A stretch of DNA of 64,000 nt from Dinoroseobacter sp. GTDB lineage: Bacteria > Pseudomonadota > Alphaproteobacteria > Rhodobacterales > Rhodobacteraceae. The stretch lies in the NCBI GenBank assembly GCA_030066795.1, contig JASJAW010000012.1:1-64000 (forward strand), read 5' to 3'. The position numbers and the translations under genes are program-made. Positions 13,680 through 33,270 of this stretch are shown piece by piece. Numbering within the stretch: the stretch's first letter is position 1; every line of letters starts with the position of its first letter. Under the pieces are notes generated by a model that ran no database searches, was not told the DNA's origin, and was given only the letters and a program-made list of their open reading frames with translations.

Positions 13680-14033
13680 TCATGCGCCGTCCTCCCACGT
13701 TTGCGTTTCAGGGCTCCACGATTTTCCGGCCGGGCCATGCTTTTCCCACTCGGAGAGGGTTCGCCAATCGTCGAGGCTCACCACTTTGCCCGTCCAGGTC
13801 AGAGGGCGACCACCGGGGCTGGTGCCGTAGGGACTTCCGCCATTTTGCGAAAAAGCTGATTTCCGCTCGGGTGCTTGCGACTTTCGCGACATTTGCGACT
13901 TTTGGGCCGTTTCGGGCATAGGTGTCGCAAAAGTCGCAGAAGTCGCAGGGGCTACTCGCGGTTTCTCACCTTTTAAGCCTTGCTGTTTTTGTAGCTTTTG
14001 AAGCGCTGCATATGGGTCAAAAATCGCGTTCAT
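13680..14033 (-). CDS. Hypothetical protein with tripeptide repeats
   Basis: A 117-residue protein whose ATG at 14033 overlaps the end of the DUF3987 gene (ATGA). The N-terminal third (MNAIFDPYAALQKLQKQQ) is helical. The middle holds two tripeptide-repeat runs, ATSATFATP and QKSQMSRKSQ, encoded by the inverted 9-bp iterons at 13876-13947. The C-terminus has LTWTGKVVSLDDWRTLSEW then a short acidic end. No known family. The repeats may serve the DNA rather than the protein. Confidence 0.6.
   Translation of the reverse strand: MNAIFDPYAALQKLQKQQGLKGEKPRVAPATSATFATPMPETAQKSQMSRKSQAPERKSAFSQNGGSPYGTSPGGRPLTWTGKVVSLDDWRTLSEWEKHGPAGKSWSPETQTWEDGA
13876..13947. repeat. Two inverted triplets of 9-bp iterons
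   Basis: Three contiguous 9-mers, TGCGACTTT, CGCGACATT and TGCGACTTT (13876-13902), are followed after 18 bases by three in inverted orientation, GGTGTCGCA, AAAGTCGCA and GAAGTCGCA (13921-13947). All share the core GCGAC or its complement. They lie inside a small gene next to the replication-type genes of the element. Such arrays often bind an initiator or repressor. The arrangement is seen directly; origin function is inference. Confidence 0.6.
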
Positions 14034-15544
14034 GACGACACCACCCTATAAGCGAGTTGGCGGGACTGGCCGTCGACGATTGCCCCCTTTTCCAATGCTT
14101 CCAGCCAACCGTGAGCCGCAAGGGTTTTCATCAGCTTTTTGGCGACGACGGTTTCCCGAGCAAAGTTTGGACCGAACCTGACCACGTCGCGTGGGATTAG
14201 GTTGTCTGACGAACGGTTCTCGCTAACCGCGATAGACGGCCAACTGTTGTGAACCCATTGCAGGAGACGGTTGGCGGCGTCCGTTTCGGCTGAGACCTCT
14301 GCAGCCTCCGACAGCCGCTGGGCCTCAGACAAGTAGAAAGCCGCCAAAGCGATAGCGTCGGCCATAGTGTCAGGGGAAACTTCTGCTGCGTTCAAGTTGT
14401 TCCAGAGCGTTAGAACGCCAGCTATCCGAGCCGCTTGCTCGGGAGACTTTGAGGCGAACGCCCTGATATGCTCAAGCGGACCGCCACTGCCCTGCGCCTT
14501 TTCGGTTTCCTGGTAATATTGGAATAACAGCTCCCGAGCGCCTTCTGACATTGGCAAAAGTCGCGGCTCCAGCTCTTGCGGCGCGTCTTCTTTGACTGGT
14601 TTCGCTGCGTTCAAGAGCGCGGAAACGCGCTGACCCATTGCTACAACCGCTACATCTGCTGCGCTACTCGTGCTTCGCGCAAGGCGTGTGCCAATCGCGC
14701 TTTGGGGCTGCGCAATCAGGAACCGCGCAAGGAACCCTTGGCCGCTGGCGACCGGATCGCAAAGTAGTGGACGGGCCGCGATAGGCTGAACCATCAGGTG
14801 CATCGCTAAACGCCGCCCATACAGCGTGGAGGCTCCGTCACCGCTGCGCACGCGGTCCAGCGCTTCGCCGCCCCACAGAGACGACAGCCCTGCCACGGTC
14901 TTCAGGCGGTTGTCCGAGTTCATAGCGTGGCCACCAAGGAAGCCACCGCCTTCGTCCGAGAAGACCCCAAGACCAGGCTGACCGGTTTGGTAGAGCTTCA
15001 CCAACCCTTCAAGCGTCGGCTCCTGTGCGGTGAGCTTCGGCGACAGCGGTCTTGCCGGTTCCGGACCGAGATTGCGCAGGTCGGCTTCTGCGGCAGCGGC
15101 TGCATCAAGCTTTGAGCCCGTCGCATCGCGGATCAGCCGGTCACGCTTGGCCTGCCAGACTTTGTGCGCCAGCTCCCAGGTCTGCATTTCGTCGCGATAG
15201 GTCTCCGCATGATCCCGCTCGTGGTCTTTGACGCCCTGCATCAGCAGCCGGTCACATGCGCTTTTACGTTCACCGGATTGAGCCACGGTCAAAAGAAACA
15301 GCGATGTCGGGGCATCAGGTCCAAGGGTCTCAACATTGGCGTGCGCCTGCACGGCCAGCGAGGCAACGGCTAAGGCTGATTGAGCCGCAATGGCGACAGG
15401 CGCCTGCGTCTGACGCTGCACGGCCAGTACAGCCGCCTTAAGGTGGCCCAACGCGTTGACGGGATAGTCTTCGCCACGCGGTATCTCGCGAACAAGTGGT
15501 TGCGGTCCCTCGGGCTTGTATTCGTGGGGAACAACAACGTTCAT
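14030..15544 (-). CDS. DUF3987-domain protein of the integrated element
   Basis: A 504-residue protein with the hallmarks of DUF3987 (YfjI-like), a family common in phage-like islands beside primase genes. Residues 30-75 contain LGHLKAAVLAVQRQTQAPVA, and a degenerate nucleotide-binding-like turn VAQSGERKSACDRLLM comes next. VFSDEGGGFLGGHAM, AGLSSLWGGEALDRVRSG and LARFLIAQPQS follow. The C-terminal 100 residues look like a winged-helix region (RDVVRFGPNFARETVVAKKL). The start overlaps the primase-like gene's end at 15541. Family members are thought to act with the toprim protein in replication; the exact activity is not established. Confidence 0.8.
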   Translation of the reverse strand: MNVVVPHEYKPEGPQPLVREIPRGEDYPVNALGHLKAAVLAVQRQTQAPVAIAAQSALAVASLAVQAHANVETLGPDAPTSLFLLTVAQSGERKSACDRLLMQGVKDHERDHAETYRDEMQTWELAHKVWQAKRDRLIRDATGSKLDAAAAAEADLRNLGPEPARPLSPKLTAQEPTLEGLVKLYQTGQPGLGVFSDEGGGFLGGHAMNSDNRLKTVAGLSSLWGGEALDRVRSGDGASTLYGRRLAMHLMVQPIAARPLLCDPVASGQGFLARFLIAQPQSAIGTRLARSTSSAADVAVVAMGQRVSALLNAAKPVKEDAPQELEPRLLPMSEGARELLFQYYQETEKAQGSGGPLEHIRAFASKSPEQAARIAGVLTLWNNLNAAEVSPDTMADAIALAAFYLSEAQRLSEAAEVSAETDAANRLLQWVHNSWPSIAVSENRSSDNLIPRDVVRFGPNFARETVVAKKLMKTLAAHGWLEALEKGAIVDGQSRQLAYRVVSS

Positions 15545-16410
15545 ACCGCCACCTCCTGCTTGCGGAGGACGTCGTTCCAGTCCTGGCCATCGGGTGCGGG
15601 GAGCAGAGACACCGTCCAGCCAAGCCCGTGCGCGCGGGCGGCGAGGTCGTTTCCAGCAGCCCTGCCTTCGGGGTCTCCGTCGGTCGCAACAACGAGGTTG
15701 CCGGGACGTTCAGGCAGGCGCAGGCCTTTCATGCCGCTGGTTGAAAGCGCGGCCCAGACGGTTGCGGGTTCGCTGAGAAGGCCTGAGAGCAACGACAGGC
15801 CGGTCTCAATGCCCTCGCAAACGACAAGCGGTCCGAGCGTCTCTGACAGGCGCACGGCGCCACCTCGGCAGGGGCCAAGCATCATCTTCGCGTTGTTAGA
15901 AAGCCTGTTGCCGGTCTTCGTGAAGAAGGTGCGATGCACACCGCCAGACGAGACGTTGGCAACCATCGCGCTGCAGTAACGTCCGCTCGGTTGGTGGTAG
16001 GCGTCCGGCAACCAGCGCAGCGTGTCAGGCAGGTTGCAAGTAATGCCGCGTGACCGGAGGTACTGCTCGCCCTTGGTTCCGGCGAGTGGTTGGCTGGAGC
16101 CCCACAAGCAACGGGCACGCTCTAGCTTCTTGGCGTCATCCGCCTTGCGATCCCGTTCAGCCTTTTCCAAAGCACATGGGTCAATTTCGACATTGCCGCT
16201 TGCGATGCCGGAGGCGACCAAAAGGTCTCTGAAGTCGCAACTCGACTTCTTGCAGTTCATCAGCAACCGCTCGCCATCGTTGCGGATGCCAAGTGCCGTC
16301 TGATCTCGGCGGCGCTCTGGCTGACAGATAGGACACGGGGCTGTGCCGTAGCTGCCGTACCACTTGCCGCCAAGGTCGTGTGTGAGCTGGGCGGGGTCGA
16401 TAGCATTCAT
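15541..16410 (-). CDS. Toprim-domain primase-like protein
   Basis: A 289-residue protein with an N-terminal zinc-ribbon-like segment (CPIC near residue 26, and a Cys pair CKKSSC near residue 53). A toprim core follows: VVCEGIETGLSLLSGL with the catalytic Glu, then NLVVATDGDPEGRAAGNDLA with the D-x-D metal site. This matches the short island primases, P4-alpha-like but lacking a helicase domain. It probably primes element replication with the DUF3987 protein, with which it overlaps. Start ATG 16410 overlaps the end of the upstream gene. Confidence 0.8.
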   Translation of the reverse strand: MNAIDPAQLTHDLGGKWYGSYGTAPCPICQPERRRDQTALGIRNDGERLLMNCKKSSCDFRDLLVASGIASGNVEIDPCALEKAERDRKADDAKKLERARCLWGSSQPLAGTKGEQYLRSRGITCNLPDTLRWLPDAYHQPSGRYCSAMVANVSSGGVHRTFFTKTGNRLSNNAKMMLGPCRGGAVRLSETLGPLVVCEGIETGLSLLSGLLSEPATVWAALSTSGMKGLRLPERPGNLVVATDGDPEGRAAGNDLAARAHGLGWTVSLLPAPDGQDWNDVLRKQEVAV

Positions 16411-16646
16411 GATGCGACCTCCCCGCCATCGCAGCCAAGCGCGGCCTCAGCGGTTTTTGCTGCGTCTGCCGGATCGAGCGCCCGGAGTGCCATGAAGGCG
16501 AGACTTACGCGCTCTTCCAAGGTAAGGCGCTTCCGAATGACGATGCGGAAGCCGAACCATGCATCTTGCGTCCCGAGGGTCAAAACGTAGCCCAGCATCC
16601 GCGTAACGCGTTCGTGGGGCTCGGCGTTTGTTGTTAGTGTTGTCAT
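16407..16646 (-). CDS. Small hypothetical protein of the integrated element
   Basis: A 79-residue protein coupled to the primase-like gene by an ATGA overlap at 16407. It contains HERVTRMLGYVLTLGTQDAW and an alanine-rich helical second half. No family was recognised. Its place between the AlpA-like regulator and the primase suggests a replication accessory or host-takeover factor, which is inference from position only. Confidence 0.55.
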   Translation of the reverse strand: MTTLTTNAEPHERVTRMLGYVLTLGTQDAWFGFRIVIRKRLTLEERVSLAFMALRALDPADAAKTAEAALGCDGGEVAS

Positions 16647-16750
16647 TACTGTCGTTTCCTCAAAGCTTGAAGGAAGCAGGCCGACGCGGTATTCTCGTGT
16701 TGCAGCATGAGAAGTTTCGCCCCTGCCCGGATCCTTCGGGTGGGGGTTTC

Positions 16751-16939
16751 TTATGTGGCATCACGCGCTGCAGTGGCTTCCGCGATGAAGTTTTCGACGT
16801 CAGATGCGGGCCAGCGCGACAAGTTGCCGAGCTTGATCGGGCGGGGGAACTTGCCCTCTTGTACCCATTTCCAGAAGGTCGAAATGGCGCAGCCGATTGC
16901 AGCGGCGCATTCTCGGTCGGTGTAGAGTATATTGGTCAT
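16751..16939 (-). CDS. AlpA-like excisionase/transcriptional regulator
   Basis: A 62-residue single-domain protein of the AlpA/MerR-like winged-helix type: TDRECAAAIGCAISTFWKWV then GKFPRPIKLGNLSRW and ASDVENFIAE. The W-x-x-DVENF end is typical of the family. ATG 16939 fits usual AlpA length; a GTG at 16966 would add nine residues. In P4-like elements AlpA proteins activate integrase expression and aid excision. The integrase gene lies upstream on the same strand. Confidence 0.75.
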   Translation of the reverse strand: MTNILYTDRECAAAIGCAISTFWKWVQEGKFPRPIKLGNLSRWPASDVENFIAEATAARDAT

Positions 16940-16997
16940 TGGGAGACCCGAGTTGATTTCTGTCACAACCCAAATTTACCCACCGCCAACTAGTGTT

Positions 16998-17708
16998 TCA
17001 TGCCGGACGTACCGCAGACGTTCGCGGCACAATTGTCAAACGCCCAAGCCCTCCACTAGCTTTGATCCGCCGCTCAATCTGTGCGCGCTTTTTGTTGTTG
17101 CCCCAAACTTCTCGCACAGCGCGAGTGGTCACCTCATGTCGCCCATGTTTTTTGTAAGCGAGCGAAATCAACTCGCTCGCGCTTGGTTCCGTTTTTCGGG
17201 AACGCTCGGCATTCTGCGTTGGTCGAAGGCTGAAGGTATCAACCAGCAACATCATAAGAAGTATGATTGCACCATCTCTAAAGCCATTCTTGGCGCGTTT
17301 TTTGGCGCTAAAACTGCGAGGGCCCTTGTAGACGCCTAGAATAATGGAGCCCGCAGCGAGAGAAAGAATTGGGGTAAGCGGGTCTCTCGCCATAAGCTGC
17401 CGGCCGATCACATGCTTCAACAGCTCAAATGCTTCGCGGTTCTCTATCGCGGCCTCTAGAAGTTGAACGTGTTTTTCCTCGGGGACGTAAAGGTAGCCCT
17501 GCGAAATTCGTTCGTCTCCGATGTAGGCACCTACTTCGTCCGTAGGTTCCGGGGCGTCCACATGTAGAACATCCAGCTCGACTAATAGAGTAAAGTACTC
17601 CATTCCCATGAACCCATTACAGGCGAAGGCTCTCTCCAGTTCGATAAATTCAGCCACTTTGTTGTTAACCAAATCAGCCAAATCAGTATCTGCATTCTGT
17701 TCGGTCAT
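16998..17708 (-). CDS. Hypothetical protein with one hydrophobic segment
   Basis: A 236-residue protein whose ATG overlaps the integrase stop (ATGA at 17705). The N-terminal half is acidic (TDLADLVNNKVAEFIELERA). A hydrophobic region at about residues 112-126 (PILSLAAGSIILGVY) and another at about 148-156 could be membrane-associated. The C-terminal part is basic and resembles a small HTH-like helix bundle (SLAYKKHGRHEVTTRAVREV). No family was recognised. It is cargo of the integrated element. Confidence 0.55.
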   Translation of the reverse strand: MTEQNADTDLADLVNNKVAEFIELERAFACNGFMGMEYFTLLVELDVLHVDAPEPTDEVGAYIGDERISQGYLYVPEEKHVQLLEAAIENREAFELLKHVIGRQLMARDPLTPILSLAAGSIILGVYKGPRSFSAKKRAKNGFRDGAIILLMMLLVDTFSLRPTQNAERSRKTEPSASELISLAYKKHGRHEVTTRAVREVWGNNKKRAQIERRIKASGGLGRLTIVPRTSAVRPA

Positions 17709-18898
17709 ACCTCTAGCAACCTCACCACTTCACCGCAGCCACCGGATACGTACTGCCCCCAACGCTCCATCAATACGCGGCGCTGTTCCAGAAAGTCAGT
17801 CCGGCGATACGCGCGCTCGACCTTGCCGCCAGCGACGTGCGCCAGGGCGGTCTCTGCGACGTTCTCCGGGGCATCCGTCGCCTCCGCGCACCAAGTTCGA
17901 AAGCTCGACCGAAAACCGTGTGGGCGCGCCTCCATGCCTGCTCGTTCCATGTAACGGCTCATTGTCGCGTCGCTGATCACACCCCGCCGCTTGTTGGGGA
18001 ACAGCAGGCCGTCGCGGGCCAGCGGCTTGGCTTGCTCAATGATGGCCAAAGCTTCGGTGGAGAGAGGTACCCGGAAGTCTGCCTCATACCCCTTCTGCGC
18101 TTTCATATACTCCGCTGGTACAGTCCATACATCATCGCGCATATCGCGCAGGTTCGCGAAACGGATCGGGCGCGAGCGGAGCGCAGTTAGAATTGTAAGC
18201 TTGATTGCGAGTTGGGTGATCGTGCCGTCAGACAAGGTGGCATAGAACTCAGGGACTTCTTTCCAGTGTAGCGCTGGTATGCTCTGAACTTCGTGGCGGC
18301 TTTTGCCGAGAAGGGCCGCCGCTTTGGCCGTCGCCTGCAGGTCGACGTCTAGACCCATCGCTGCGCCGTACTTCATGACAATGCTGAGCCGGTCCATGGC
18401 CTTGCCTGCGGTAGACGCCTTCGTATGCCAGATGGGGGCCAGTGTGTTGCGGATATCCTGTTGGTCAATGTCCTCGACAGGAACGCGTCCGAGCTTTGGC
18501 AGCACATGAAGGCGCAATGGAGAAAACCACCGCCCCGCTTTGCCGTCGTCCTTCAATTGGGACTTGCGTGCTTCAAAGGCCTGTACAGCGACGCTTTCCA
18601 GCGTTGCCTGATCCCGGGCTGCTGCACGCTTGAGTTTCTCGCGCTCTTTTATTGGGTCCAAGCCTTGGCGAACGACAGCGCGCCAGCGCTCGGCTTCGGT
18701 GCGGGCTTCCTTCAACGTTACGTCGCGGGTCGAACCGAGCCCCATCTCACGGCGTCGACCGTGAATGGATACGCGCAGAAACCACTGACCTCCGCCGTCA
18801 GCGCGTTGGTGCAGCCACAGCCCACCACCGTCTGAATGTTTGCCCGGCCTGACCTTCTGAACGACGTTTCCTGGAAGCTTATGGAGAGCTCTCATCAT
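17705..18898 (-). CDS. Tyrosine recombinase (P4-type integrase)
   Basis: A 397-residue integrase. The open frame begins at a TTG, but ATG 18898 follows AAAGGTGG and is preferred. The N-terminal arm-binding domain (DUF4102 type) is seen as VRPGKHSDGGGLWLHQRADG with MGLGSTRDVTLKEAR. A core-binding domain follows. The catalytic residues read Arg241 (TALRSRPIRF), His327 and Arg330 (HGFRSSFR), His354 (ALAHVAGG) and Tyr364 (ERAYRRTD), so it looks active. It sits at one end of the element, as is usual, with repeats just upstream. No tRNA gene was found next to it, so the target site is unknown. Confidence 0.9.
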   Translation of the reverse strand: MMRALHKLPGNVVQKVRPGKHSDGGGLWLHQRADGGGQWFLRVSIHGRRREMGLGSTRDVTLKEARTEAERWRAVVRQGLDPIKEREKLKRAAARDQATLESVAVQAFEARKSQLKDDGKAGRWFSPLRLHVLPKLGRVPVEDIDQQDIRNTLAPIWHTKASTAGKAMDRLSIVMKYGAAMGLDVDLQATAKAAALLGKSRHEVQSIPALHWKEVPEFYATLSDGTITQLAIKLTILTALRSRPIRFANLRDMRDDVWTVPAEYMKAQKGYEADFRVPLSTEALAIIEQAKPLARDGLLFPNKRRGVISDATMSRYMERAGMEARPHGFRSSFRTWCAEATDAPENVAETALAHVAGGKVERAYRRTDFLEQRRVLMERWGQYVSGGCGEVVRLLEV

Positions 18899-18910
18899 CA
18901 ACCACCTTTG

Positions 18911-20989: not shown

Positions 20990-21886
20990 TTAACTCGCGC
21001 CGCCGTTGGCCAATGCGTCTACGATTGCACCAAGGTTGTGCCGGAACATCGCAAGATAGCTCGTGGCCGGGCCACCGCGCTCTGACAGCGCGTCGGAGTA
21101 TAGCCTTCCGCCGATCTCGATCCCGGTCTCGTCGGCGATTTGCCGGACCAGCGCCGGACTGGTGATGTTTTCGACAAACAGTGCCGCCACCTGTTCTTTG
21201 CGCAACTGCTCGATCAGCGCGGCAAGGTCCTGTGCGGACGGTTCCGCCTCACTATCGATGCCGACCGGAGCCAGGAACGTCATGCCGTAGGCATTCGCGA
21301 GATAACCGAACGCGTCATGTGCGGTCACGACCGTCCGGCGATCGGCCGGAAGAGCAGCAAGTTTTTCTTTGGTTTCGGCATCCAGCGCTTCGAGTTCATC
21401 TATATAGGCCGCGGCATTTGCGGAAAATTCGTCCGCGTGAGCGGGCATCACTTCGGACATCGCGTCCGCAATGTTCTGGACATAGACCACACCGTTGGCG
21501 AGCGCGTTCCACGCATGCGGATCAACTTCTCCATCCACTTCAAGCGGCGTGATCCCGTCTGTCGCGACATAGACGACGCCCTCTGTTCCAGATTCCGCGA
21601 TCAGGGTGTCGGACCACGTCTCAAAACCGAGGCCATTGACGAAGACGACGTCCGCCTCGGCAACGGCGCGCGCGTCTGCAACCGAGGGCTGGTAGATATG
21701 GGCGTCAGCGTCCGGTCCCACGATGGTGGTGACGCTCGCATGGTCGCCCACGACCTGTTCGACCATATCACCAAGGATCGAGAAGCTCGCCACGATATTG
21801 ATCTGTTCGCCAGCAGCGGCGGGGAGGGCCGTAAACGACAGCGACGCTGCCGTGAGCCCGACATAGATTGGTTTAAAGAAGGTCAT
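20990..21886 (-). CDS. Metal-ion ABC transporter substrate-binding protein (cluster A-I, ZnuA/AztC-like)
   Basis: A 298-residue periplasmic protein started at ATG 21886 behind AGGAGAA and overlapping the permease stop (ATGA). The signal peptide ends about residue 25 (LPAAAG). Likely metal ligands are His63 (DADAHIYQPS), His124 (EVDPHAWN), His190 (VTAHDAFGYL) and Asp265 (RLYSDALSE). Three His and one Asp fit the zinc-type site rather than the Mn/Fe type, which has Glu at the third position. There is no His-rich loop of the ZnuA kind. The whole operon lies behind a cobalamin riboswitch, so cobalt is a serious alternative substrate. Confidence 0.85.
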   Translation of the reverse strand: MTFFKPIYVGLTAASLSFTALPAAAGEQINIVASFSILGDMVEQVVGDHASVTTIVGPDADAHIYQPSVADARAVAEADVVFVNGLGFETWSDTLIAESGTEGVVYVATDGITPLEVDGEVDPHAWNALANGVVYVQNIADAMSEVMPAHADEFSANAAAYIDELEALDAETKEKLAALPADRRTVVTAHDAFGYLANAYGMTFLAPVGIDSEAEPSAQDLAALIEQLRKEQVAALFVENITSPALVRQIADETGIEIGGRLYSDALSERGGPATSYLAMFRHNLGAIVDALANGGAS

Positions 21887-22785
21887 TCTGGTTTCTCCTG
21901 AGGGTTTGCGGGGTGAACAGTGGCGGTGTGGGATGCGGACGGTTTTCGGAGCCGGCCGCCAAAGCCCAGCGGCCCGAAGAGCGCTGAGATCGCAAAAAAA
22001 CCGCCCGCGACAAGGACAATCGCGGGACCTGAAGGTGTTTCCGGGAGCACGTAAGACAGCGTCAGTCCGATCCAGCAGCTTGCCAGTGCGAACACAAACC
22101 CAAGCGCCAGCTGCCCGGTGATCGTGTGCGCCCAGTATCTTGCGGCCGTGGCAGGCAAGATCATCAAGCCGACGGCCATCAAGGTCCCAAGGGTTTTGAA
22201 TGCCGCCAGCAAGTTCAGCACCAAGAGTAACATGAAGGTTTGCTCCACAATCCACGGGCGACGCGCTTGGGACTCGAAGAAGACCGGATCGCAGGTGCTG
22301 GCAATCAGTGGCCGCAATAAGAAAGCGAAGGAGACAAGGGTGATCGTTGCGACGCCGCCCACAAGCAGCATCGAGGCGTCTTCGATCCCGAGGATCGAGC
22401 CGAAGAGGAAGCTTTTCAGCGGAATTGCCGACCCTGCCGCGGACAGGATGAAAATGCCCGCTGCAAGGGCGACAAGGTAAAGCGAGGCAAGGCTTGCATC
22501 GCTGCGCAGGATTGTTTTGCGCGCCAGCAGCGCTGTAAGGATGGCGACGCCGATACCGGCGATCAAACCGCCGACAATCAGGGACACAACCGAAAGCCCG
22601 GCGGTCACAAACCCGATCACGATCCCAGGGGTAATGGCATGGGCCATCGCCTCCCCAGCAAGGGACAGTCGGCGCAGGACCAGAAACGCACCGACAGGCA
22701 CAACCGAGGCGGACAGAACAGTGGTTGCCACGAATGCGCGGCGCATAAACGCGAAGCTCCACATCTCGGCCAGAAGGTCAAACAT
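21883..22785 (-). CDS. Metal-ion ABC transporter permease (ZnuB/AztB-like)
   Basis: A 300-residue polytopic membrane protein of the ABC-3 family with eight or so hydrophobic segments. The ATG at 22785 follows GGAGGT; the open frame upstream reads through the ATPase gene's end. Typical ABC-3 features are VGAFLVLRRLSLAGEAMAHA near residue 35 and LMAVGLMILPATAARYWA near residue 205. It overlaps both neighbours, which implies translational coupling of all three transporter genes. Confidence 0.9.
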   Translation of the reverse strand: MFDLLAEMWSFAFMRRAFVATTVLSASVVPVGAFLVLRRLSLAGEAMAHAITPGIVIGFVTAGLSVVSLIVGGLIAGIGVAILTALLARKTILRSDASLASLYLVALAAGIFILSAAGSAIPLKSFLFGSILGIEDASMLLVGGVATITLVSFAFLLRPLIASTCDPVFFESQARRPWIVEQTFMLLLVLNLLAAFKTLGTLMAVGLMILPATAARYWAHTITGQLALGFVFALASCWIGLTLSYVLPETPSGPAIVLVAGGFFAISALFGPLGFGGRLRKPSASHTATVHPANPQEKPE

Positions 22786-23536
22786 GTGAGACCTCCGACA
22801 CTTCGGGCGAACCACGAAACATCCAGGCGGCTTGGCTGGGTGACAGGTAGGCCTGCCGCACCAGCCGTTCCGGTGTCAGTACCTCGTCCACTGTGCCATA
22901 GGTCGCCTCACCGGCACCCAGCAGAAGTGCGTGGCTGCAGTGATCCAGCACCGAAGACAGATCATGGACCACCAGGACGACGGCACGACCTTCGTCTTTC
23001 CATCGTCGCAGGATCGACAGCAGATGCGCTTCGGTGGTTTGGTCAACCGCGGCAAAAGGTTCATCCAACAGGATCAAGGACGCGTCCTGCATGATGACTC
23101 GCGCAAAAAGCGCGCGCTGCAACTCGCCGCCAGACAAGGTGTGTAGCGCCTGATCCGCCAATTCCAGGATGCCCGCTGCGTCAAGGGCTGCGTCAACGCG
23201 GTTTTGTTCCTTGAACCCCAGTCCTGACGTCAGCCCGAAACCGCGCCAGGCCCCCATGGCGACAAGGTCCCGCACCCGAATGGGGAACTTGCGATCGAAA
23301 TCCGTCATTTGCGCGAGATAGCCAATCTCGTTTGGTACGCCGTCGGGCCATGTCAGGCGTCCGGCGAGGGGTTTGTTGAGTCCAAGCAATGTCTTGACGA
23401 ATGTGGACTTTCCGGCCCCGTTTGCACCCAGCACTGCCAGCGTGGCACCCGCCTCAACATCCATTGAGAGTTGGCGAAACAGCGTCTGTTTCGGATATCC
23501 CAGCGCAAGGTTGCGGATCTGCAAAATCGCGGTCAT
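22778..23536 (-). CDS. Metal-ion ABC transporter ATPase (ZnuC/AztA-like)
   Basis: A 252-residue ATPase with Walker A GANGAGKST (residues 37-45), Q-loop YLAQMTDFDRKFP, signature LSGGELQR, Walker B LILLDEPF and the switch His in VLVVHDLSS. The DRKFPIRVRDLVAMG segment after the Q-loop is typical of zinc/manganese uptake ATPases. Its start codon overlaps the stop of the 64-residue membrane protein (TGATG), so that small gene is part of the operon. Confidence 0.92.
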   Translation of the reverse strand: MTAILQIRNLALGYPKQTLFRQLSMDVEAGATLAVLGANGAGKSTFVKTLLGLNKPLAGRLTWPDGVPNEIGYLAQMTDFDRKFPIRVRDLVAMGAWRGFGLTSGLGFKEQNRVDAALDAAGILELADQALHTLSGGELQRALFARVIMQDASLILLDEPFAAVDQTTEAHLLSILRRWKDEGRAVVLVVHDLSSVLDHCSHALLLGAGEATYGTVDEVLTPERLVRQAYLSPSQAAWMFRGSPEVSEVSHV

Positions 23537-23727
23537 CAGACCACTGCTATGATCATCAGCCAGAGACCTGCTGAAACGCCCAGAGCAGACAACACCAGAG
23601 CCGGGACGCTCAGATGCGTCAGGCAGAAACTGTGTGCTGACTGCGCGGCATTTGCCTTGGCTGGGCTTGCGCTTCTATCTCCAGATTTCTGAGGGCGCAG
23701 TCTGTGCGGCTTCGCATGGTTTGGCAT
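23536..23727 (-). CDS. 64-residue membrane protein leading the transporter operon
   Basis: ATG 23727 follows GGAGGT; the frame is open to a GTG at 23793 but that has no signal. The N-terminal 38 residues are basic and contain several His and a Cys (MPNHAKPHRLRPQKSGD, HSFCLTHLS). The last 22 residues form one strong membrane helix (PALVLSALGVSAGLWLMIIA). It lies between the cobalamin riboswitch and the ATPase gene, overlapping the latter. Its position recalls small accessory subunits of B12-regulated cobalt importers (CbtB is also a short one-helix protein), but it does not show CbtB's C-terminal His motif. Family unknown. Confidence 0.6.
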   Translation of the reverse strand: MPNHAKPHRLRPQKSGDRSASPAKANAAQSAHSFCLTHLSVPALVLSALGVSAGLWLMIIAVV

Positions 23728-23838
23728 TGCCACCTCCGACAAGGCAGGGCAATGGCAAAACCACAGTGTCTTTCGGCAAGGGCCGTATCGCACATCGTCG
23801 TTTCCCTCCGGGACACCCCGCCCGGGTAAGTTTCGGTT

Positions 23839-24031
23839 GCAATGGCAGGTCTCCTGACTCGCGGGTCGGCGCTCCCCCTGACCTTCCCGAGTGTTTACAA
23901 ACCCAGTGGTCCTTTCGGGGTCGCTCTCCGCTCACAGTTGCGGGGGCAGTCACGGACTTGGCGCCTGATGGCTACACCTCACCGTGTTCCCTTTTCATTT
24001 CTCGGGCCTTGGGCCGTTGAAAACCATTGCC
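23839..24031 (-). promoter_or_regulatory. Cobalamin (B12) riboswitch
   Basis: On the minus strand the region reads, in order, GGCAATGG (P1 5-prime side), AAGGGAACACGGTG, GCCATCAGGCGCC, CCCCCGCAACTGTGAGC (B12 box core), the CACTGGGTTT and CTCGGGAAGG arms, and GAGTCAGGAGACCTGCC ending in CCATTG, which closes P1. These are the conserved elements of the cobalamin riboswitch in the expected order. It precedes the 64-residue membrane protein by about 110 bases and the metal ABC transporter. Such riboswitches normally lower expression when adenosylcobalamin is plentiful. Confidence 0.9.
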
Positions 24032-25280: not shown

Positions 25281-25922
25281 TTGGGGCGTCTGAAATTGTT
25301 GAGTGACTTTGCTCCGGTTCTGTTTGCCCTTACTGTTCTGGCGACGGCCGTGATGGCTGCATCCGCCGCAATTCAAGCCGCGCGGCAATCGTTCGATTTC
25401 TTCGGGGCGATCGTTCTGGCGCTGGTCACCGCTGTGGGCGGAGGAACGCTGCGCGATGTGCTTATCGGGCGGTTTCCGGTTTTCTGGATCAACGATCCGA
25501 CTTATCTGGCCACGGCTGTACCGGTCGGGCTGATTACGTGGTTTGTCGCGTGCCGGATGCCAGCCGGGGGCGGCCGCAGATTGCGTTTGTTGCTTTATTT
25601 TGACGCCGTTGGGCTTGCGCTTTTCACGCTCGTCGGGCTGCAGATCGCGCTGAATACGGGGGTGTCGGATCTCATGGCGGTCATTCTCGGCTGTGTGACA
25701 GGCATCGCAGGGGGAATGATCCGGGATGTTCTATGCGGCTTGCAGCCCTCTGTGCTCAAGGAAGACCTTTATGCCTCCATCTCACTCGCGGGTGGTTCCG
25801 CCTTCATTGTCCTGAGAGATTTCGCGCCTCTTGAGACCGCGCTTGCTACGTCCTTCGCGGCGATGACGATCGCCCGGTTCTGGGTGGTTTGGCGAGGAGC
25901 GATCCGGGATGAGCCGCTTTAG
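25281..25922 (+). CDS. TRIC/UPF0126-family membrane channel protein (YicG-like)
   Basis: About 213 residues with seven hydrophobic segments and two inverted copies of a three-helix unit. The copies carry the family signatures TAVGGGTLRDVLIG and GIAGGMIRDVLCG, which line the pore in bacterial trimeric cation channels. The start is uncertain: the frame opens with TTG at 25281, and TTGs at 25296 and 25299 lie closer behind GGGGCG. It ends convergently over the stop of thiX (four-base overlap). The conducted ion is not determinable; prokaryotic homologues pass K+ or Na+. Confidence 0.8.
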   Translation: MGRLKLLSDFAPVLFALTVLATAVMAASAAIQAARQSFDFFGAIVLALVTAVGGGTLRDVLIGRFPVFWINDPTYLATAVPVGLITWFVACRMPAGGGRRLRLLLYFDAVGLALFTLVGLQIALNTGVSDLMAVILGCVTGIAGGMIRDVLCGLQPSVLKEDLYASISLAGGSAFIVLRDFAPLETALATSFAAMTIARFWVVWRGAIRDEPL

Positions 25923-26656
25923 CGCGCAAGCCGCTGGGCGGCACGGTCTGCGGCCACATAAAGCATGACAGACATGACGCCGAGCGTCAGCATGGCGGCG
26001 AACATCAGGTCGGTTTTTGCGCGGCCATTGGCCAGCAGCATCAAGTAACCCAACCCCCGCGAGGCGCCGACCCATTCGCCGATCACAGCGCCGATCGGGG
26101 CGTAGACCGCCGCGAGTTTCAGCCCGGTTCCGAGGCTCGGCAGCGCGTGTGGGACGCGAATACGCCAGAGGACCGCGCGCGGTCTTGCCCCCATGGTTTG
26201 CGCCAGATCCAGCCAGCCCTGCGGGGTTCGCATCAAGCCGTCGAAGAAGGCGGATGTAACCGGGAAATAGATGATCAGCACCGCCATTGCGACTTTGGAC
26301 CATAGCCCGTAGCCCAGCCACAGTGTCAGGATCGGCGCCAGGGCAAAAACTGGCAGCGCCTGGCTGAAGACGAGCATAGGACGGATCAGTTCCTGAGCCG
26401 CGCGCGAACTGGCCAGCGAGAGTGCGGTCGCCGCGCCAAGAATGCCGCCGATCAAGAGTCCAAGCGCCACTTCCGAAAGCGTCACCAATGTGTGTTCGCC
26501 AATGAGCATGCGGTTCTGCCACCAGGCTTCTGCCACACTTCCTGGCCCGGGCAGAATAAAGCTTGCCACACCTGTGGTGCTGACGATCCCCTGCCAAACC
26601 ACTAGCGCGAGAACTGTGGCTGATGCTGGCCAAAGAACTGCGCTTGCCCGCATCAT
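25919..26656 (-). CDS. thiX: Thiamine-precursor ABC transporter permease
   Basis: A 245-residue inner-membrane permease of the SsuC/TauC type with about six hydrophobic segments. The EAA-loop region reads DLAQTMGARPRAVLWRIRVP. It is the last gene of the TPP-riboswitch operon and overlaps the ATPase stop. Together with ThiZ and ThiY it should import pyrimidine precursors (HMP or formylaminopyrimidine). Specificity is inferred from the binding protein and from tenA. Confidence 0.88.
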   Translation of the reverse strand: MMRASAVLWPASATVLALVVWQGIVSTTGVASFILPGPGSVAEAWWQNRMLIGEHTLVTLSEVALGLLIGGILGAATALSLASSRAAQELIRPMLVFSQALPVFALAPILTLWLGYGLWSKVAMAVLIIYFPVTSAFFDGLMRTPQGWLDLAQTMGARPRAVLWRIRVPHALPSLGTGLKLAAVYAPIGAVIGEWVGASRGLGYLMLLANGRAKTDLMFAAMLTLGVMSVMLYVAADRAAQRLAR

Positions 26657-27378
26657 GCCGCCTCTCGCAGCCGTCGGAGCAGTGCGCCGGCCGCTGTGAG
26701 CGTTTCTGTATCATCCACCCCACGCGGGATCGGGCCCTTCGGAGGGGCGATCTCGGTCATCCCGCGATGTTCCAAGACAGCGATTTTCTGGCCCAACCGC
26801 GCGGCTTCGCCCGGATCATGCGTCACAAGCAGAACGGTGCGCCCCTTCAAGAGCTCCACCGCGAGATCCTGCATCTGGCTGCGGGTTTTTGCGTCGAGCG
26901 CGGAGAACGGTTCATCCAGCAGAATAACCGGGCGGTCTTCCATCAGTGTTCGAGCCAGTGCAGCACGTTGGCGTTGCCCGCCTGACAATTGCGCGGGCTT
27001 CTTCCTTGCATGCGCGCCCAAGCCCACGCGCTCCAGCAACTCCAGCGCGCGCCCTGTATCCGGCTGTTCTTTGCGCAGGTGCGCGCCGGTGCACACGTTG
27101 TCTAAGACAGTGGCCCAAGGAAACAGCAGATCGTCTTGAGCCATCAGCGCAACGCGTTCCGGCAGCGGCAGGCTATCTGACGCTGTGATTTGCCCGTCGA
27201 AATCCACATGCGCATCGAGGCCTGCAATCAGCCGCAATATCGTTGATTTGCCCACGCCGGATGCGCCCAAAAGGCAGGTCCATTCCCCTGACTTCAAATC
27301 GAGTGTGACGGGTGCAAAGAGGCGCCCGGCCTCCGTTTCCGCCGCACCTTTGATCCGGATAGCCGGAGCAGGGGTCAT
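26653..27378 (-). CDS. thiZ: Thiamine-precursor ABC transporter ATPase
   Basis: A 241-residue ATPase with Walker A GASGVGKST, signature LSGGQRQR, Walker B VILLDEPFSALD and the switch His in LLVTHDPGEAARLG. It belongs to the nitrate/sulfonate/taurine subfamily. Its ends overlap tenA and thiX, in keeping with a single translation-coupled operon. Confidence 0.88.
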   Translation of the reverse strand: MTPAPAIRIKGAAETEAGRLFAPVTLDLKSGEWTCLLGASGVGKSTILRLIAGLDAHVDFDGQITASDSLPLPERVALMAQDDLLFPWATVLDNVCTGAHLRKEQPDTGRALELLERVGLGAHARKKPAQLSGGQRQRAALARTLMEDRPVILLDEPFSALDAKTRSQMQDLAVELLKGRTVLLVTHDPGEAARLGQKIAVLEHRGMTEIAPPKGPIPRGVDDTETLTAAGALLRRLREAA

Positions 27379-28046
27379 GGGTCGAGCCCCATATCCCAGA
27401 AGCCGACCTCCAGTGTTGTCGCCTTTGCAAAAGTTTCCCCAAGTTGTGAGAAGCGCGGTGACAGCGTGTACTCAGCGCCCAGACGATGTCTCAGAGCATT
27501 TTCGATGAGTTGCCCTGTTTCTTTGCAGACCTCCTGGTATTCGTCACCGCCATAGGTGCCGATCCAATCCGAGTAAGTGTCGCTGTATCCTGAACTCGCA
27601 AGGCGCGCGCCGATCTCACCATAACCCAAAACGCACGGAGCCAGGGCCGCAAGAAGATCGAGGAAATCGCCCGAATACCCAGCCTCCAAAACGAAGCGCG
27701 TGTAGGCCATGTTTTCGGCCCGCTCCACAGTTGCTTCCAGCGTGTCCTTGTCGATGCCAGCCGCCGCGCAGATTTCCGTATGCAGCGCCATCTCATGGTG
27801 CAAAAGGGCGTGCACAGTGGCGCAGGCAGATTGCATTTCTGCAAGAGTGGCAGCCTTGGCGATCGCCAGGCCCCAGGCGCGTGAAAAATGCATCAGGAAA
27901 ATGTAGTCCTGCTTCAGATAATGCAGAAACGCGTCGCGCGGCAGGGAGCCGTCTTGCAGCCCCGCAACAAAGGCGTGGCGTGTATAGGCGTTCCAATCCG
28001 GGGCTGCCGCCCGCCATTTTTCGAATGCGGAGCCGTAGCCTGTCAT
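27375..28046 (-). CDS. tenA: Aminopyrimidine aminohydrolase / thiaminase II
   Basis: A 223-residue helical TenA protein. The catalytic Cys138 (LAPCVLGYGEIG) and Glu213 (TTLEVGFWDMG) match Cys135 and Glu205 of the Bacillus enzyme. KQDYIFLMHFSRAW and HHEMALHTE are also family blocks. TenA releases HMP from degraded thiamine. Lying between the ThiY and ThiZ genes it points to salvage of imported base-degraded thiamine. Confidence 0.92.
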   Translation of the reverse strand: MTGYGSAFEKWRAAAPDWNAYTRHAFVAGLQDGSLPRDAFLHYLKQDYIFLMHFSRAWGLAIAKAATLAEMQSACATVHALLHHEMALHTEICAAAGIDKDTLEATVERAENMAYTRFVLEAGYSGDFLDLLAALAPCVLGYGEIGARLASSGYSDTYSDWIGTYGGDEYQEVCKETGQLIENALRHRLGAEYTLSPRFSQLGETFAKATTLEVGFWDMGLDP

Positions 28047-28981
28047 TGCGCGGTCACGTCGATGGCTATGGTATTCACCGGTTTGGCCTCTTCAAGGAGA
28101 CCGGTGCCGACAAGGAACTCCTCGAACCGAGCATAGCGCCCCTCGTCAAGCGCAGCCGGACGCAGCGCAAACCGCGGCAGCGTGTCGACCCAAGCGCGCG
28201 CGTTCAGTTCATCGTCCAGTTCTGCTGCGGTGCCCTTGAAGATCTCCCACGCGTCTTCGGGGTGGTTGACGATGTATTGCGTGGCTTTCTCGACGGCGCT
28301 GAGGAACCGCGCAATCTTGTCTGTATCAAGCGTTTCCGAGTTCGCCACGTAGATCAGTTCATCGTGCGGCGGGATACCTTCTTCTTCGATGTAGTAACAC
28401 TGTCCATCGATCCCTTCGATTTCCATCTGGTTGAGCTCGAAGTTTCGGTAGGCTCCGATCACAGCGGCCACCTGACCCGACATTAGGGAGGGCGAGATCG
28501 AGAAGTTCACATTCACCAGGGTGACGTCGTCCAAAGCGACGCCGTGGTTGCCAAGCAGCGTCTCCAGCAGCGCTTCTTCCACACCGGCAACGGAGAAGCC
28601 GATCGTTTCCCCTTTCAGATCGGAGAGGTTTTCAATCGGCCCGTCGGCCAGGGTCATAAGGCAATTCAGCGGGGTCGCAATCAGGGTGCCGACCCGCAAC
28701 AACGGCAAACCTTGGGCCACCTGCAAATGCTGCTGGATCTGGTAGGAGACAGCGATATCGCCTTGCCCTGCAGCCACCAACTTTGGCGGCGCTGAGGGGT
28801 CTGCAGGGGCGATGACCTCAACCTCCAGACCGGCCTCGGCGAAATACCCGCGTTCCTCGGCCACGATGATCGGCCCGTGATTGGGGTTGATGTACCAATC
28901 AAGCAGCAGCGTGAACTTGTCTGCCGCAAGCGCCGGTGTGGCCAGAAGCCCAAGGGCCAGCGCAAAGGGGAGCGATTTCAT
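28043..28981 (-). CDS. thiY: Thiamine-precursor binding protein (NMT1/THI5-like)
   Basis: A 312-residue protein with a signal peptide (cleavage after ALAAD, residue 20) and the NMT1-like opening KFTLLLDWYINPNHGPIIVA. EVIAPADPSAPPKLVAAGQG and IGAYRNFELNQMEIEGIDG are also typical of the pyrimidine-binding ThiY group. There is a Cys-Tyr-Tyr (GQCYYIEEEGIPPHDE) in the ligand region. The ligand is probably N-formyl-aminopyrimidine or HMP. Confidence 0.88.
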   Translation of the reverse strand: MKSLPFALALGLLATPALAADKFTLLLDWYINPNHGPIIVAEERGYFAEAGLEVEVIAPADPSAPPKLVAAGQGDIAVSYQIQQHLQVAQGLPLLRVGTLIATPLNCLMTLADGPIENLSDLKGETIGFSVAGVEEALLETLLGNHGVALDDVTLVNVNFSISPSLMSGQVAAVIGAYRNFELNQMEIEGIDGQCYYIEEEGIPPHDELIYVANSETLDTDKIARFLSAVEKATQYIVNHPEDAWEIFKGTAAELDDELNARAWVDTLPRFALRPAALDEGRYARFEEFLVGTGLLEEAKPVNTIAIDVTAQ

Positions 28982-28985
28982 GGTT

Positions 28986-29954
28986 TTATGTCTCCGTGTC
29001 GGTGTGTGGGGCGGCGGCGAGAACGATCTCGCCCGGCCATGTCAGGGACAGGCGTTGTCCCATGCGCCAGGCCCGTAGGCCAGTCGCGCAGGCGAGAACG
29101 ACCCTTTGGTCCTTTGGGGGCGACGGCAAACGGGTGTCCGGGGCGTGCCGCACCGCGTTTGGCGTGATGGGCGTCGGGGCTTCGTCGGCTCCGCGCAGTT
29201 CAAGTACAAGATCGTCCGGACGCACTTCAGAAGCCGCGACAAACCGCAGCGGTTTCTTCGGCTCCGTTGCGTTATCGAAGCGGAAGTGGGAAATCCGCCA
29301 TGTCGCGGCGTCGAGGGTCAACATCAGCCCAAGCGGGTTGTCCCCGGTCTTGGTCAGGTGTGCCAGTGCCATCTGCGCTTGAGCCGCGCCGATCATGCCG
29401 ACGACCGGGCCGCTCACGCCCGCGGTCGCGCAGCTTGCCGCCGTGTCAGGCGGGTCGGGGAAGAGGGCCCGCAGGCTCGGGGCACCGCCACAAGTGCCAC
29501 AGATATAGCCGGCTTGCTGCAGGACTGAGGCAGTGATCAGCGGCTTGCCCGCGGCAAGACACAGGTCGGAGGCTGTGAAACTTGCCGCGAAACTGTCGGC
29601 GCAGTCGATCACCAGATCAACCTCCGAGACAAGGCGCGGCCCCGTGGCCGGGTCGAACACCGTATTATGGGCACGGACAGTGATTTCCGGGTTCAGACTG
29701 GTCAAAACCGCTTTCGCGGCATCTGCCTTCGGCATACCGAGTGTCTTGGTCGAAAACAGCGTTTGCCGGTGCAGGTTGGACAGGCTGACTGAATCAGGGT
29801 CCACGATGTCGATCGCCCCAATGCCTGCCCCAGCGAGATAAGACAGAACCGGCGCGCCCAGCCCGCCCGCGCCGATCACCAGCACACGGGCAGCGGCCAG
29901 CTGTGTTTGCCCTTCGGCCCCGAAGACCAGTTCCTGTCGGGTATAGCGCGTCAT
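28986..29954 (-). CDS. thiF: Sulfur-carrier adenylyltransferase
   Basis: A 322-residue E1-like enzyme. ATG 29954 overlaps the thiE stop (ATGA) and is preferred to the upstream in-frame codon. The ATP site GAGGLGAPVLSYLAGAG, the DPDSVSLSNLHRQ loop, and the metal Cys pairs (CGTCGG and the ASCAT region) are visible. The last 60 residues contain VVLACATGLRAWRMGQRL, which looks like a reduced rhodanese C-terminal loop (C-x-x-G-x-R). ThiF adenylates the ThiS C-terminus for thiazole synthesis. A MoeB role is a lesser alternative. Confidence 0.88.
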   Translation of the reverse strand: MTRYTRQELVFGAEGQTQLAAARVLVIGAGGLGAPVLSYLAGAGIGAIDIVDPDSVSLSNLHRQTLFSTKTLGMPKADAAKAVLTSLNPEITVRAHNTVFDPATGPRLVSEVDLVIDCADSFAASFTASDLCLAAGKPLITASVLQQAGYICGTCGGAPSLRALFPDPPDTAASCATAGVSGPVVGMIGAAQAQMALAHLTKTGDNPLGLMLTLDAATWRISHFRFDNATEPKKPLRFVAASEVRPDDLVLELRGADEAPTPITPNAVRHAPDTRLPSPPKDQRVVLACATGLRAWRMGQRLSLTWPGEIVLAAAPHTDTET

Positions 29955-30550
29955 ACGCAAGCCTCGACCCACTGACCCATCCGCGCTTCCGGCGATTGGT
30001 TAAGTGTGATGTCTGTGACGACCGACACGATGTCCGCGCCTGCTTCAAAAACTCCGGGCGCGCGTTCCACAGTCATGCCGCCGATGGCGACAAGCGGAAT
30101 GTCCCCGATCAGGCGTTTCCATTCGGTGACGCGGTCGAGACCTTGTTCATGCCATTTCATTTTCTTGAGTATCGTCGGGTAGACAGGGCCGAGCGCAACA
30201 TAATCCGGGCTGAACGCCAACGCGCGGTCAAGCTCTGCGTGATCATGGGTGGACAGACCCAATTTGATCCCGGCGGCACGCAGCGCGTCCACGTCAGCGG
30301 TGTCGAGGTCTTCCTGGCCCAGATGGACCCAGTCGCAGCCTTCCTCGAGGGCGATCTGCCAATAATCGTTAACGACCAGCGTGGCATCATGTTCTCTGCA
30401 AAGGCCCTTGGCGGCGCGGATCTCGGCCCGGACAACGTTGAGCGGTTGATCTTTGACACGTAGTTGGATGAAGCGCGCGCCGAGCGGCAAGGCCCGAAGA
30501 ACCCACGCGGCGCTGTCGAAGATGGGATAGAAGCGGGGCAGGGTGCTCAT
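29951..30550 (-). CDS. thiE: Thiamine-phosphate synthase
   Basis: A 199-residue TIM-barrel enzyme joining HMP-PP and thiazole phosphate. Family sites are [28 protein letters not shown] with [12 protein letters not shown] and VAIGGMT. The NDYWQIA segment differs from the usual NDRxDLA, a variant whose effect on activity is unclear. It overlaps thiG and thiF by four bases each. Confidence 0.9.
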
Positions 30551-31317
30551 GACAAAAACGCCTGTCCAATGACCGGCGTTGACGGTTCCGCCATCTCTCG
30601 CGGCGGCATGGGATCGGCGGCATGTCCCGCCGCGCCGGCCTCAGCCGCCAAAGCCATGGCTCGCGCCATTTGCACCGGATCACCCGCCTTGGCGACGGCT
30701 GTGTTCAGAAGAACTGCGTCGAACCCCATTTCCATTGCGGCTGCCGCATGGGACGGCAGGCCAATTCCCGCATCGACCACCATCGCAACGTCTGGAAAAC
30801 GGGCACGAATGGTGCGTAACCCGTAGGGATTGGATAAGCCTAGCCCTGTCCCAATCGGCGCGCCCCACGGCATCAGCACCTCGCAGCCAGCGCCGAGAAG
30901 CCGCTCGGCGACGACAAGGTCTTCGGTGCAGTACGGAAAAACCTGAAACCCGTCTTCGGTGAGGATACGCGCGGCTTCGACCAGTTCGAACACATCAGGT
31001 TGCAACGTGTCCGTCTGGCCGATCACCTCTAGCTTGATCCACCGCGTGTCAAAGAGTTCCCGCGCCATATGCGCCGTGGTGACAGCTTCCTTCACAGTAT
31101 GGCAGCCGGCCGTATTCGGTAGCACGCGTACGCCCAGATCGCGGATCATGTCCCAGAAGGCTTGGCCCTCGCCGCCGGACCCCTCGCGGCGCAGCGATAC
31201 CGTTGCCACAGATGCCTGAGATGCCTTGAAGGCTTCCGCCAGAATTGCAGGGGAAGGGTACTGTGCCGTGCCGAGCATCAACGGTGTTTCCAGCGCGGTG
31301 CCATAGAAGGTGCGCAT
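30547..31317 (-). CDS. thiG: Thiazole synthase
   Basis: A 256-residue barrel protein with the Schiff-base Lys in RWIKLEVIG, the [13 protein letters not shown] block and [19 protein letters not shown] phosphate-binding end. It makes the thiazole phosphate from deoxyxylulose phosphate, dehydroglycine (from ThiO) and ThiS-thiocarboxylate. It follows thiS by three bases. Confidence 0.93.
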
Positions 31318-31320
31318 CGG

Positions 31321-31515
31321 TCAGCCTCCTTGCATCGGGGCTAGAATTTCGATCCGATCGCCCGTGGTCAGACGCGTGTTGGCCCGTGCAGCCTTGGGAA
31401 CGAAGGCCTCGTTCACTGCCGTTGCCACACGATCTGAATAGCCAAGCTCCCTCAGCAGCGCATCGAGTGTCTGTGCGCTTGCCTCCTGCGCGCAGCCGTT
31501 AATCTGCAGTTGCAT
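31321..31515 (-). CDS. thiS: Sulfur carrier protein
   Basis: A 64-residue ubiquitin-like carrier ending in the required Gly-Gly (ILAPMQGG). The start overlaps the last bases of thiO. It carries sulfur as a C-terminal thiocarboxylate after adenylation by ThiF. Confidence 0.93.
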   Translation of the reverse strand: MQLQINGCAQEASAQTLDALLRELGYSDRVATAVNEAFVPKAARANTRLTTGDRIEILAPMQGG

Positions 31516-32473: not shown

Positions 32474-33270
32474 GGCGTCCACCATTCGTGGAAATGGTGC
32501 ACTGGCCCGTGTCCGTGTCCGACCTGCAGGTCGTCCGCTGACTGGATTGCAGCCTGTAAATACCGATGTGCTTCAGTGACCGCGTCGCGCAGGCTTGTAC
32601 CTTTGGCAAGTTCTGCAGCTATGGCCGACGACAACGTGCAGCCGGTGCCGTGCGTGTTGGTTGTGTTTTGGCGCGGAGCCTCCAGCCTCAAGGACGGTTT
32701 GCCACCTTCCACGAGCAGGTCAATGCATACAGTTCCGCTGCCATGACCGCCCTTCATCAAAACAGCTTTCGCGCCGAGTGCGCACAATGCATGGCCCTGT
32801 GTGGCGATTTCGCTCTCAGACGTTTTTTGCGGTTCATGTAAGAGCCGCGCTGCCTCGGGAAGATTTGGCGTCAGCAAGGTGGCTTTCGGCAACAGCGCCT
32901 CCGCCAGAGCAGCCTCAGCATCGGCGGCGAGAAGCGCGTCGCCTGATTTGGCAACCATAACCGGGTCCAGCACCACAGGACCTGAAAAACCTTTGATACC
33001 GCCTGCAACGGTTTCAATGACCTCCGGTGTCCCAAGCATGCCGATCTTGATCGCTTTCACGTCCAGATCGGAGAGCACTGCATCGATCTGCGCGGCGATG
33101 GTGGTGGCAGGGATCATGGCCACGTCTGTCACCGCCCGCGTGTTCTGCGCTGTAACGGCTGTGATTACGCTTGCGCCATAAGCTCCGAGTGCGGAGAAGG
33201 TCTTCAGATCAGCCTGAATACCGGCGCCGCCGCCGCTGTCGCTTCCCGCAATGGTCAAGGCAATTGCCAT
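32470..33270 (-). CDS. thiD: HMP / HMP-phosphate kinase
   Basis: A 266-residue ribokinase-like enzyme with the substrate segment GSDSGGGAGIQADLKTFSA and the ATP/anion-hole motif NTHGTGCTLSSAIAAEL. It is the first gene after the TPP riboswitch and uses a GAGGGC ribosome binding site. It phosphorylates HMP twice, accepting imported or TenA-released HMP. Confidence 0.93.
   Translation of the reverse strand: MAIALTIAGSDSGGGAGIQADLKTFSALGAYGASVITAVTAQNTRAVTDVAMIPATTIAAQIDAVLSDLDVKAIKIGMLGTPEVIETVAGGIKGFSGPVVLDPVMVAKSGDALLAADAEAALAEALLPKATLLTPNLPEAARLLHEPQKTSESEIATQGHALCALGAKAVLMKGGHGSGTVCIDLLVEGGKPSLRLEAPRQNTTNTHGTGCTLSSAIAAELAKGTSLRDAVTEAHRYLQAAIQSADDLQVGHGHGPVHHFHEWWTP

Follow-up and report, generated by a model that had tools for sequence, protein, structure and literature searches.

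A four-gene operon on the minus strand of the window, by which we mean the whole 64,000-nucleotide stretch of Dinoroseobacter sp. DNA analysed here, begins with a cobalamin riboswitch and is likely to encode a cobalt importer that serves B12 synthesis and is repressed by B12. The order of elements is riboswitch, an open reading frame (ORF) of 63 amino acids, and the genes of the ATP-binding subunit, the membrane permease and the periplasmic metal-binding protein of an ATP-binding cassette (ABC) transporter (coordinates in Table 1). The riboswitch, the gene order and their conservation are observed, as are the co-occurrence with CobN, a cob locus without riboswitch and cbtAB, and selection on the small ORF; which metal is carried, how B12 regulates the operon in this host and what the small protein does are inferred.

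Riboswitch and transporter genes

First, the riboswitch of the window was scored with cmscan. The match to RF00174 covers model positions 1-189 of 189 and scores 130.3 bits, where the gathering score is 31.5 (E = 1.8e-32), and the B12 box AGTCAGGAGACCTGCC was found in it. This confirms the cobalamin riboswitch that a preliminary description of the window had placed before the transporter, with its extent corrected so that it reaches 24043. The same description held that the transporter does not stand behind a Zur-type site. In agreement with this, a search of 900 bp upstream of the ATPase gene gave no Zur-like box, nor did a search of 700 bp with a looser palindrome, although a divergent box could escape both patterns. 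A start codon at the position of the possible leader ORF downstream of the aptamer recurs in many riboswitch loci, with a peptide that by eye is poorly conserved, and it is uncertain that this ORF is a real gene; its resemblance to cbtB was too slight for us to retain it as a cbtB remnant. Folding of the expression platforms of ten loci gave no defensible common helix, and the on/off mechanism assumed below is therefore borrowed from the known riboswitch class.

All three large subunits pass their Pfam cut-offs, which assigns them to a cluster A-I metal ABC importer of the ZnuA and ABC-3 families. The small ORF, which the preliminary description overlooked, makes this an operon of four overlapping genes: the successive overlaps are 1, 8 and 4 bases, the first base of the ATPase ATG being the final base of the stop codon of the small ORF, so that the four genes are probably translationally coupled. 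Automatic annotation had been expected to give a zinc label. The top NCBIfam models are those of AztA, AztB and AztC, with every score below the cut-off of the corresponding equivalog (NF040870, NF040871, NF040873; Table 1), and plasmid homologs (at most 52% identical) among the matches listed (20 of 33) are labelled variously as zinc, plain "metal" or iron-binding, or are unannotated.

In the binding protein the ligands are H63, H124, H190 and D265 (precursor numbering). In an alignment of the window with 80 orthologous loci they are conserved in 81, 80, 81 and 79 of 81 sequences, respectively, and all 81 are without a His-rich D-loop, having throughout the same short 14-residue stretch, also in comparison with 5w56; the nearest solved chains are 5kzj, 8svc and 5w56. 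Three histidines and one aspartate without the loop are typical of group III binding proteins, usually for manganese or iron, and the zinc protein AztC belongs to group III as well (PMC7731109). Hence the ligands alone do not indicate zinc: the ligand set given in the preliminary description stands, its use as a zinc signature does not.

Conservation of the riboswitch linkage

Two peptide patterns, one set of sequences from the window and G022 serving as their source, were used to scan species genomes for orthologs; of the 346 relatives obtained, the 80 most similar were retained. Seven of the 80 loci are truncated on the upstream side, which leaves 73 assessable loci, and in 63 of them the riboswitch lies ahead of the operon. 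The linkage in other genomes that was named earlier as a check on the cobalt proposal is thus present. The 63 comprise 55 loci detected by pattern, seven that the B12-box pattern missed and cmscan detected, and L108, in which the riboswitch (by pattern only) lies directly before the binding-protein gene. All of the 12 pattern-positive loci that were run through cmscan were confirmed. The copies of the operon in L050 and L101 adjoin cob genes (gene names in L050 by reading the sequence), which speaks for the cobalt reading.

Ten assessable loci are without the riboswitch. In seven, hereafter the zinc-context loci (L076, L083, L085, L087, L088 from G022, L098, L105), a zinc-type COG0523 GTPase gene is found downstream of the binding-protein gene; the other three are L114, L119 and L116, the last having COG0523 and WD40 genes farther away on the opposite strand. 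Among 120 relatives the only close ortholog is that of G022 (73%; next best 52%), without a riboswitch, and none of the twelve homolog loci from that search, which include G022 and AztABC- and Mnt-type systems, has one. Those twelve at first suggested that the linkage is not conserved, which the scan of close orthologs overturned. A scan of viral contigs confirmed no relative.

Cobalt and B12 genes in carrier genomes

The comparison covered the window's own genome (G000; 57 contigs, 95% complete), G022, the genomes of 50 of the 80 loci (45 riboswitch, 5 zinc-context) and, from the 120 relatives, 26 that do not carry the transporter. CobN exceeds its cut-off in 45/45 riboswitch genomes and in G000, compared to 16/26 of these non-carriers (Fisher p = 1e-5, kinship ignored). 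Of the six zinc-context carriers only G022 has it, the other five being negative. CbtAB, CbiMNQO and NiCoT, which belong to other protein families, supply cobalt in B12 makers (PMC2667541), and an earlier comparison of 15 Rhodobacterales genomes counted 12 cobalt-transport orthologs overall (PMC3766115). Beside the present operon CbtA and CbiM are scarce, at 4/45 and 6/45 riboswitch genomes, and neither has a match in the contigs of G000. Counting G000, one or the other occurs in 10/46 CobN-positive carriers compared to 13/16 CobN-positive non-carriers (Fisher p = 4e-5, kinship ignored); several of the CbiM matches are weak (51-65 bits), in carriers and non-carriers alike.

The cob locus of G000 itself is without a riboswitch and cbtAB. 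In G001, of the same genus, a riboswitch (by pattern), a cbtB-like ORF (own reading) and cbtA lie between SMC and cobW-GNAT-cobN; the same stretch of G000 has cobW-GNAT-cobN, with CobW over the TIGR02475 cut-off (509 bits vs 332), and a gap of 185 bp to SMC with neither riboswitch nor cbtA. The survey of the B12 pathway itself covered CobN and, in G000, CobW.

These observations best support the following model. The importer, of the AztABC-like branch of cluster A-I, would take up Co2+ for the aerobic cobaltochelatase and hence for B12. When B12 is plentiful, the coenzyme would bind the leader RNA and switch the operon off. When it is short, the operon would be expressed, and the binding protein would capture the metal at its 3His/1Asp site and hand it to the permease and ATPase, with the co-translated 63-residue protein probably in the membrane complex.

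Several points weigh against cobalt import as the role of the operon. Ten carriers possess CbtA or CbiM too. NicO-family proteins, which are not scarce beside the operon, occur in 39/45 carriers and in G000 (91 bits) vs 8/16 CobN-positive non-carriers; being commoner in carriers, they make another cobalt route possible, the family including exporters as well as nickel/cobalt transporters, with the two kinds not distinguishable for these carriers. CorA, counted among the cobalt routes of Roseobacter genomes (PMC4771312), and further candidates beyond our survey of CbtA, CbiM and NicO are possible routes as well. The BtuFCD-like operon of G000 described next could itself carry cobalt, with B12 as the alternative cargo. 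Since G000 is only 95% complete its absences are not certain, and because the genomes are related the p values are too small. Finally, one nested group of these transporters occurs in zinc-type surroundings (see below).

The BtuFCD-like operon follows the one other B12 riboswitch found in G000 (150 of 223 candidates scored), and its subunits reach no NCBIfam cut-off. It is 25-41% identical to three homologous genes that follow a riboswitch box on pSymB of Sinorhizobium meliloti and that are probably cbtJKL (the record is unannotated). CbtJKL is a cobalt ABC importer under a B12 riboswitch, and its CbtJ resembles BtuF (PMC7689651). The present system is similar in being a putative cobalt ABC importer with such a riboswitch, but its binding protein belongs to the ZnuA family and not to the BtuF type; the distant relative of CbtJKL in G000 is the contig 9 operon and not the present transporter. 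Two genes of the contig 9 operon, the BtuF-like gene and the one following it, which we take to be DUF1289-like, are found downstream of the ZnuA-family transporter in L069, L071 and L084, and the position of the BtuF-like gene there favours the cobalt reading; L055 has only the DUF1289-like gene there, and L066 a 57-residue piece of the BtuF-like gene.

Loci in zinc-type contexts

A tree of permease and binding protein was computed by a quick method (87 rows; L108, L115, L124 and L041 were dropped for want of a permease match). The subfamily of the window is one clade (support 99), separate from AztABC- and Mnt-type homologs. Of the zinc-context loci, six group together (99) within a 48-row set (100) whose remaining members are 41 riboswitch loci and one truncated locus; their sister is the riboswitch locus L097 (93), and L088 branches elsewhere. 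The tree requires a minimum of two changes between the riboswitch and zinc-context states, which most simply ran from riboswitch to zinc context. The binding proteins of the seven zinc-context loci are 67-74% identical to that of the window, with the same ligands and the same loop length.

A WD40 gene is present in 6/7 zinc-context loci, the exception being L085, where the contig ends. This resembles the zinc clusters of Haas 2009 (PMC2770081), which describes Zur-regulated paralogs, COG0523-WD40-znuABC clusters and COG0523 subfamily 5; the likeness covers only a minority of the branch, and the GTPase is likened by gene context, not by subfamily assignment. Of the GTPases encoded downstream, those of L076 and L088 (= L034) were tested and rejected as true CobW (215 and 217 bits, TIGR02475 cut-off 332). 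By our own reading, L098 has Fur/Zur-like regulator, HisI-, CysRS- and ThrRS-like genes as neighbours, and L105 a dihydroorotase-like gene; the Zur-regulated paralogs of Haas 2009 are of this kind.

We then searched the seven zinc-context loci over their whole length for a Zur palindrome, allowing up to two mismatches. Five contain Zur-like boxes (Table 1), two of the five at a distance of no more than 900 bp from the ATPase gene, while L088 and L105 have none. For the riboswitch loci the search covered only the 900 bp preceding the ATPase gene; the palindrome occurs there in 0/63 (1.6 expected by chance), and a Paracoccus denitrificans-type site (PMC5387054) in 1/63, weakly, in L078 (2.9 expected by chance). 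A looser palindrome was dropped, as it matched L076 but also the riboswitch loci L096, L103, L112, L121 and L128.

A sub-branch in zinc-type neighbourhoods, nested within the riboswitch clade, means that metal use may have switched or that the importer is broad. If it were broad, it would carry cobalt, zinc and perhaps manganese, and the regulator would fit the host, a B12 riboswitch in B12 makers and Zur with COG0523 elsewhere. The close similarity of the zinc-context homologs and their Zur-like boxes favour this explanation. That so few carriers have CbtA or CbiM fits real cobalt delivery, and riboswitch and downstream COG0523 gene are mutually exclusive in the loci seen, although both facts are compatible with breadth too. 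We consider a broad divalent importer unlikely. The preliminary description had spoken of a cobalt-specific branch; its link to B12 holds, its purity does not, with six nested loci and L088 having no riboswitch and a COG0523 gene downstream. It is possible, if somewhat short of probable, that this distinct four-subunit ZnuABC/AztABC branch, with its overlooked single-transmembrane subunit, acts as a cobalt importer in B12-making Alphaproteobacteria without CbtAB and CbiMNQO, and that it was converted at least twice to zinc by exchange of the riboswitch for Zur/COG0523.

Other reasons for a B12 switch

A B12 riboswitch might also control the supply of another metal to an enzyme needed when B12 is short. 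MetE is a zinc enzyme, relatives of the binding protein (AztC, ZnuA) import zinc, and partial MetE-like matches below the cut-off occur in 11/45 riboswitch genomes. However, full-length MetE over the cut-off is found in 0/45 of these genomes, without a match in G000, and we regard zinc import for MetE as extremely improbable. Together with the riboswitch linkage, the constant presence of CobN and the rarity of CbtA and CbiM, the lack of MetE supports the original proposal of cobalt import for B12.

Alternatively, the operon might import manganese when B12 is short, for NrdEF, the class Ib ribonucleotide reductase that does not need B12. This would agree with the usual manganese or iron cargo of group III proteins (PMC7731109) and with L059 and L063, where nrdIEF-like genes lie next to the transporter operon behind a second B12 riboswitch of divergent orientation. 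The class Ib marker NrdI is present in only 7/45 riboswitch genomes and not in G000, which makes this explanation highly improbable. As general reasons for the B12 switch, both zinc for MetE and manganese for NrdEF are ruled out by these counts. Separately, a second B12 riboswitch lies 3' of the binding-protein gene in L077 (6990-7202) and, by pattern, in L082 and L129; in L077 there is no clear gene between it and an MrpA-like antiporter gene at about 7740.

Small membrane protein and comparison with AztABC

A hydrophobic small ORF with a single transmembrane segment, ending at or just before the ATPase start, was detected with a loose motif in 70 of the 73 searchable loci among 81, the window included. 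The motif is mostly CLTExS or NLTxxS and is common to riboswitch and zinc-context loci; it is absent from L093, L096 and L116, of which L093 still has a hydrophobic ORF. The ratio of nonsynonymous to synonymous differences (pN/pS) is 0.38 in frame compared to 1.19 and 1.67 in the other frames (496 pairs, 45 loci). This purifying selection indicates that the ORF is very probably a real protein. It has no Pfam and no NCBIfam match, looks like an unrecognised transporter subunit, and is probably part of the membrane complex.

Judged by hydropathy only, a small ORF also precedes the ATPase gene in 9/10 AztABC-type loci (classed by tree or identity), which suggests that it may be a general subunit of the branch; no mention of it was found in the parts of the literature consulted on AztABCD. 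No small ORF precedes 14 Mnt-type ATPase genes, which is weak evidence because the binding-protein gene can occupy that place. The present system resembles AztABC(D), the zinc importer of P. denitrificans, in this ORF, in the top NCBIfam models of its three large subunits and in the family of its binding protein. It differs in its scores below cut-off, the lack of a His-rich D-loop, the B12 riboswitch, the lack of a detected Zur-like box and a clade of its own.

Other features

The ORF downstream of the binding-protein gene (Table 1) matches no NCBIfam family and no Pfam family better than E 0.19. Elsewhere in the window, a thiamine pyrophosphate riboswitch (33425-33324, minus strand, 77.1 bits) was found, and ORFs on the same strand (25919-32485) read by eye as thiamine genes (ThiO/ThiG/ThiE/ThiF/TenA-like and an ABC transporter). 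A 6S RNA (RF00013, 52.4 bits) lies at 58339-58185 on the minus strand. Integrase- and primase-like ORFs (by eye) at 14030-18901, minus strand, are possibly a mobile element near the operon.

Table 1 Features of the window and of compared loci. Coordinates without a locus name are those of the window.
Feature	Position	Strand	Evidence or remark
Cobalamin riboswitch aptamer, start of operon leader	24043-23827	minus	RF00174, cmscan
Possible leader ORF, 58 aa, directly 3' of aptamer	23619-23795	minus	SD-like GGAGGG (SD, Shine-Dalgarno); sequence and ORF scan
63-aa single-transmembrane protein, candidate fourth subunit	23727-23536	minus	CLTxxS motif, then transmembrane segment; start preceded by SD GGAGG
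ATP-binding subunit (P0003)	23536-22778	minus	PF00005 ABC_tran 87.9 bits; AztA 192.3, cut-off 220
Membrane permease (P0002)	22785-21883	minus	PF00950 ABC-3 148.7 bits; AztB 202.8, cut-off 280
Periplasmic metal-binding protein (P0001)	21886-20990	minus	PF01297 ZnuA 289.7 bits; AztC 287.9, cut-off 350
Downstream ORF, 106 aa, 3' of binding-protein gene	20935-20615	minus	Homologs (62-68%) in same place in L055, L066, L069, L071
BtuFCD-like operon with B12 riboswitch	L033 5244-10001 (G000 contig 9)		Riboswitch search
Divergent B12 riboswitch before nrdIEF-like genes	L059 3562-3752; L063 about 3527	minus	Beside transporter operon
Exact Zur-like box	L076, before operon		
Zur-like box	L085, L087, just before an upstream COG0523 gene		
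Zur-like boxes	L098, ~770 bp and farther upstream		
Weak Zur-like box	L083, downstream		
AztABC-type operons with hydrophobic small ORF	L035, L036, L038, L040, L043, L046-L049, just before ATPase gene		

Implications

In the open-access literature searched, as far as it was available, we did not find the conserved link between a B12 riboswitch and a ZnuABC/AztABC-type importer, its apparent conversion to zinc or the small protein; an earlier prediction of the link is possible. If the cobalt assignment is true, cobalt would join zinc, manganese and iron among the metals carried by this transporter superfamily, and the operon would suggest how cobalt reaches Alphaproteobacteria in which cobN is present but CbtA and CbiM are both missing. 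The branch also has close homologs under B12-type and under zinc-type regulation, between which metal selectivity can be compared, and the small membrane protein is put forward as a concrete new subunit candidate.

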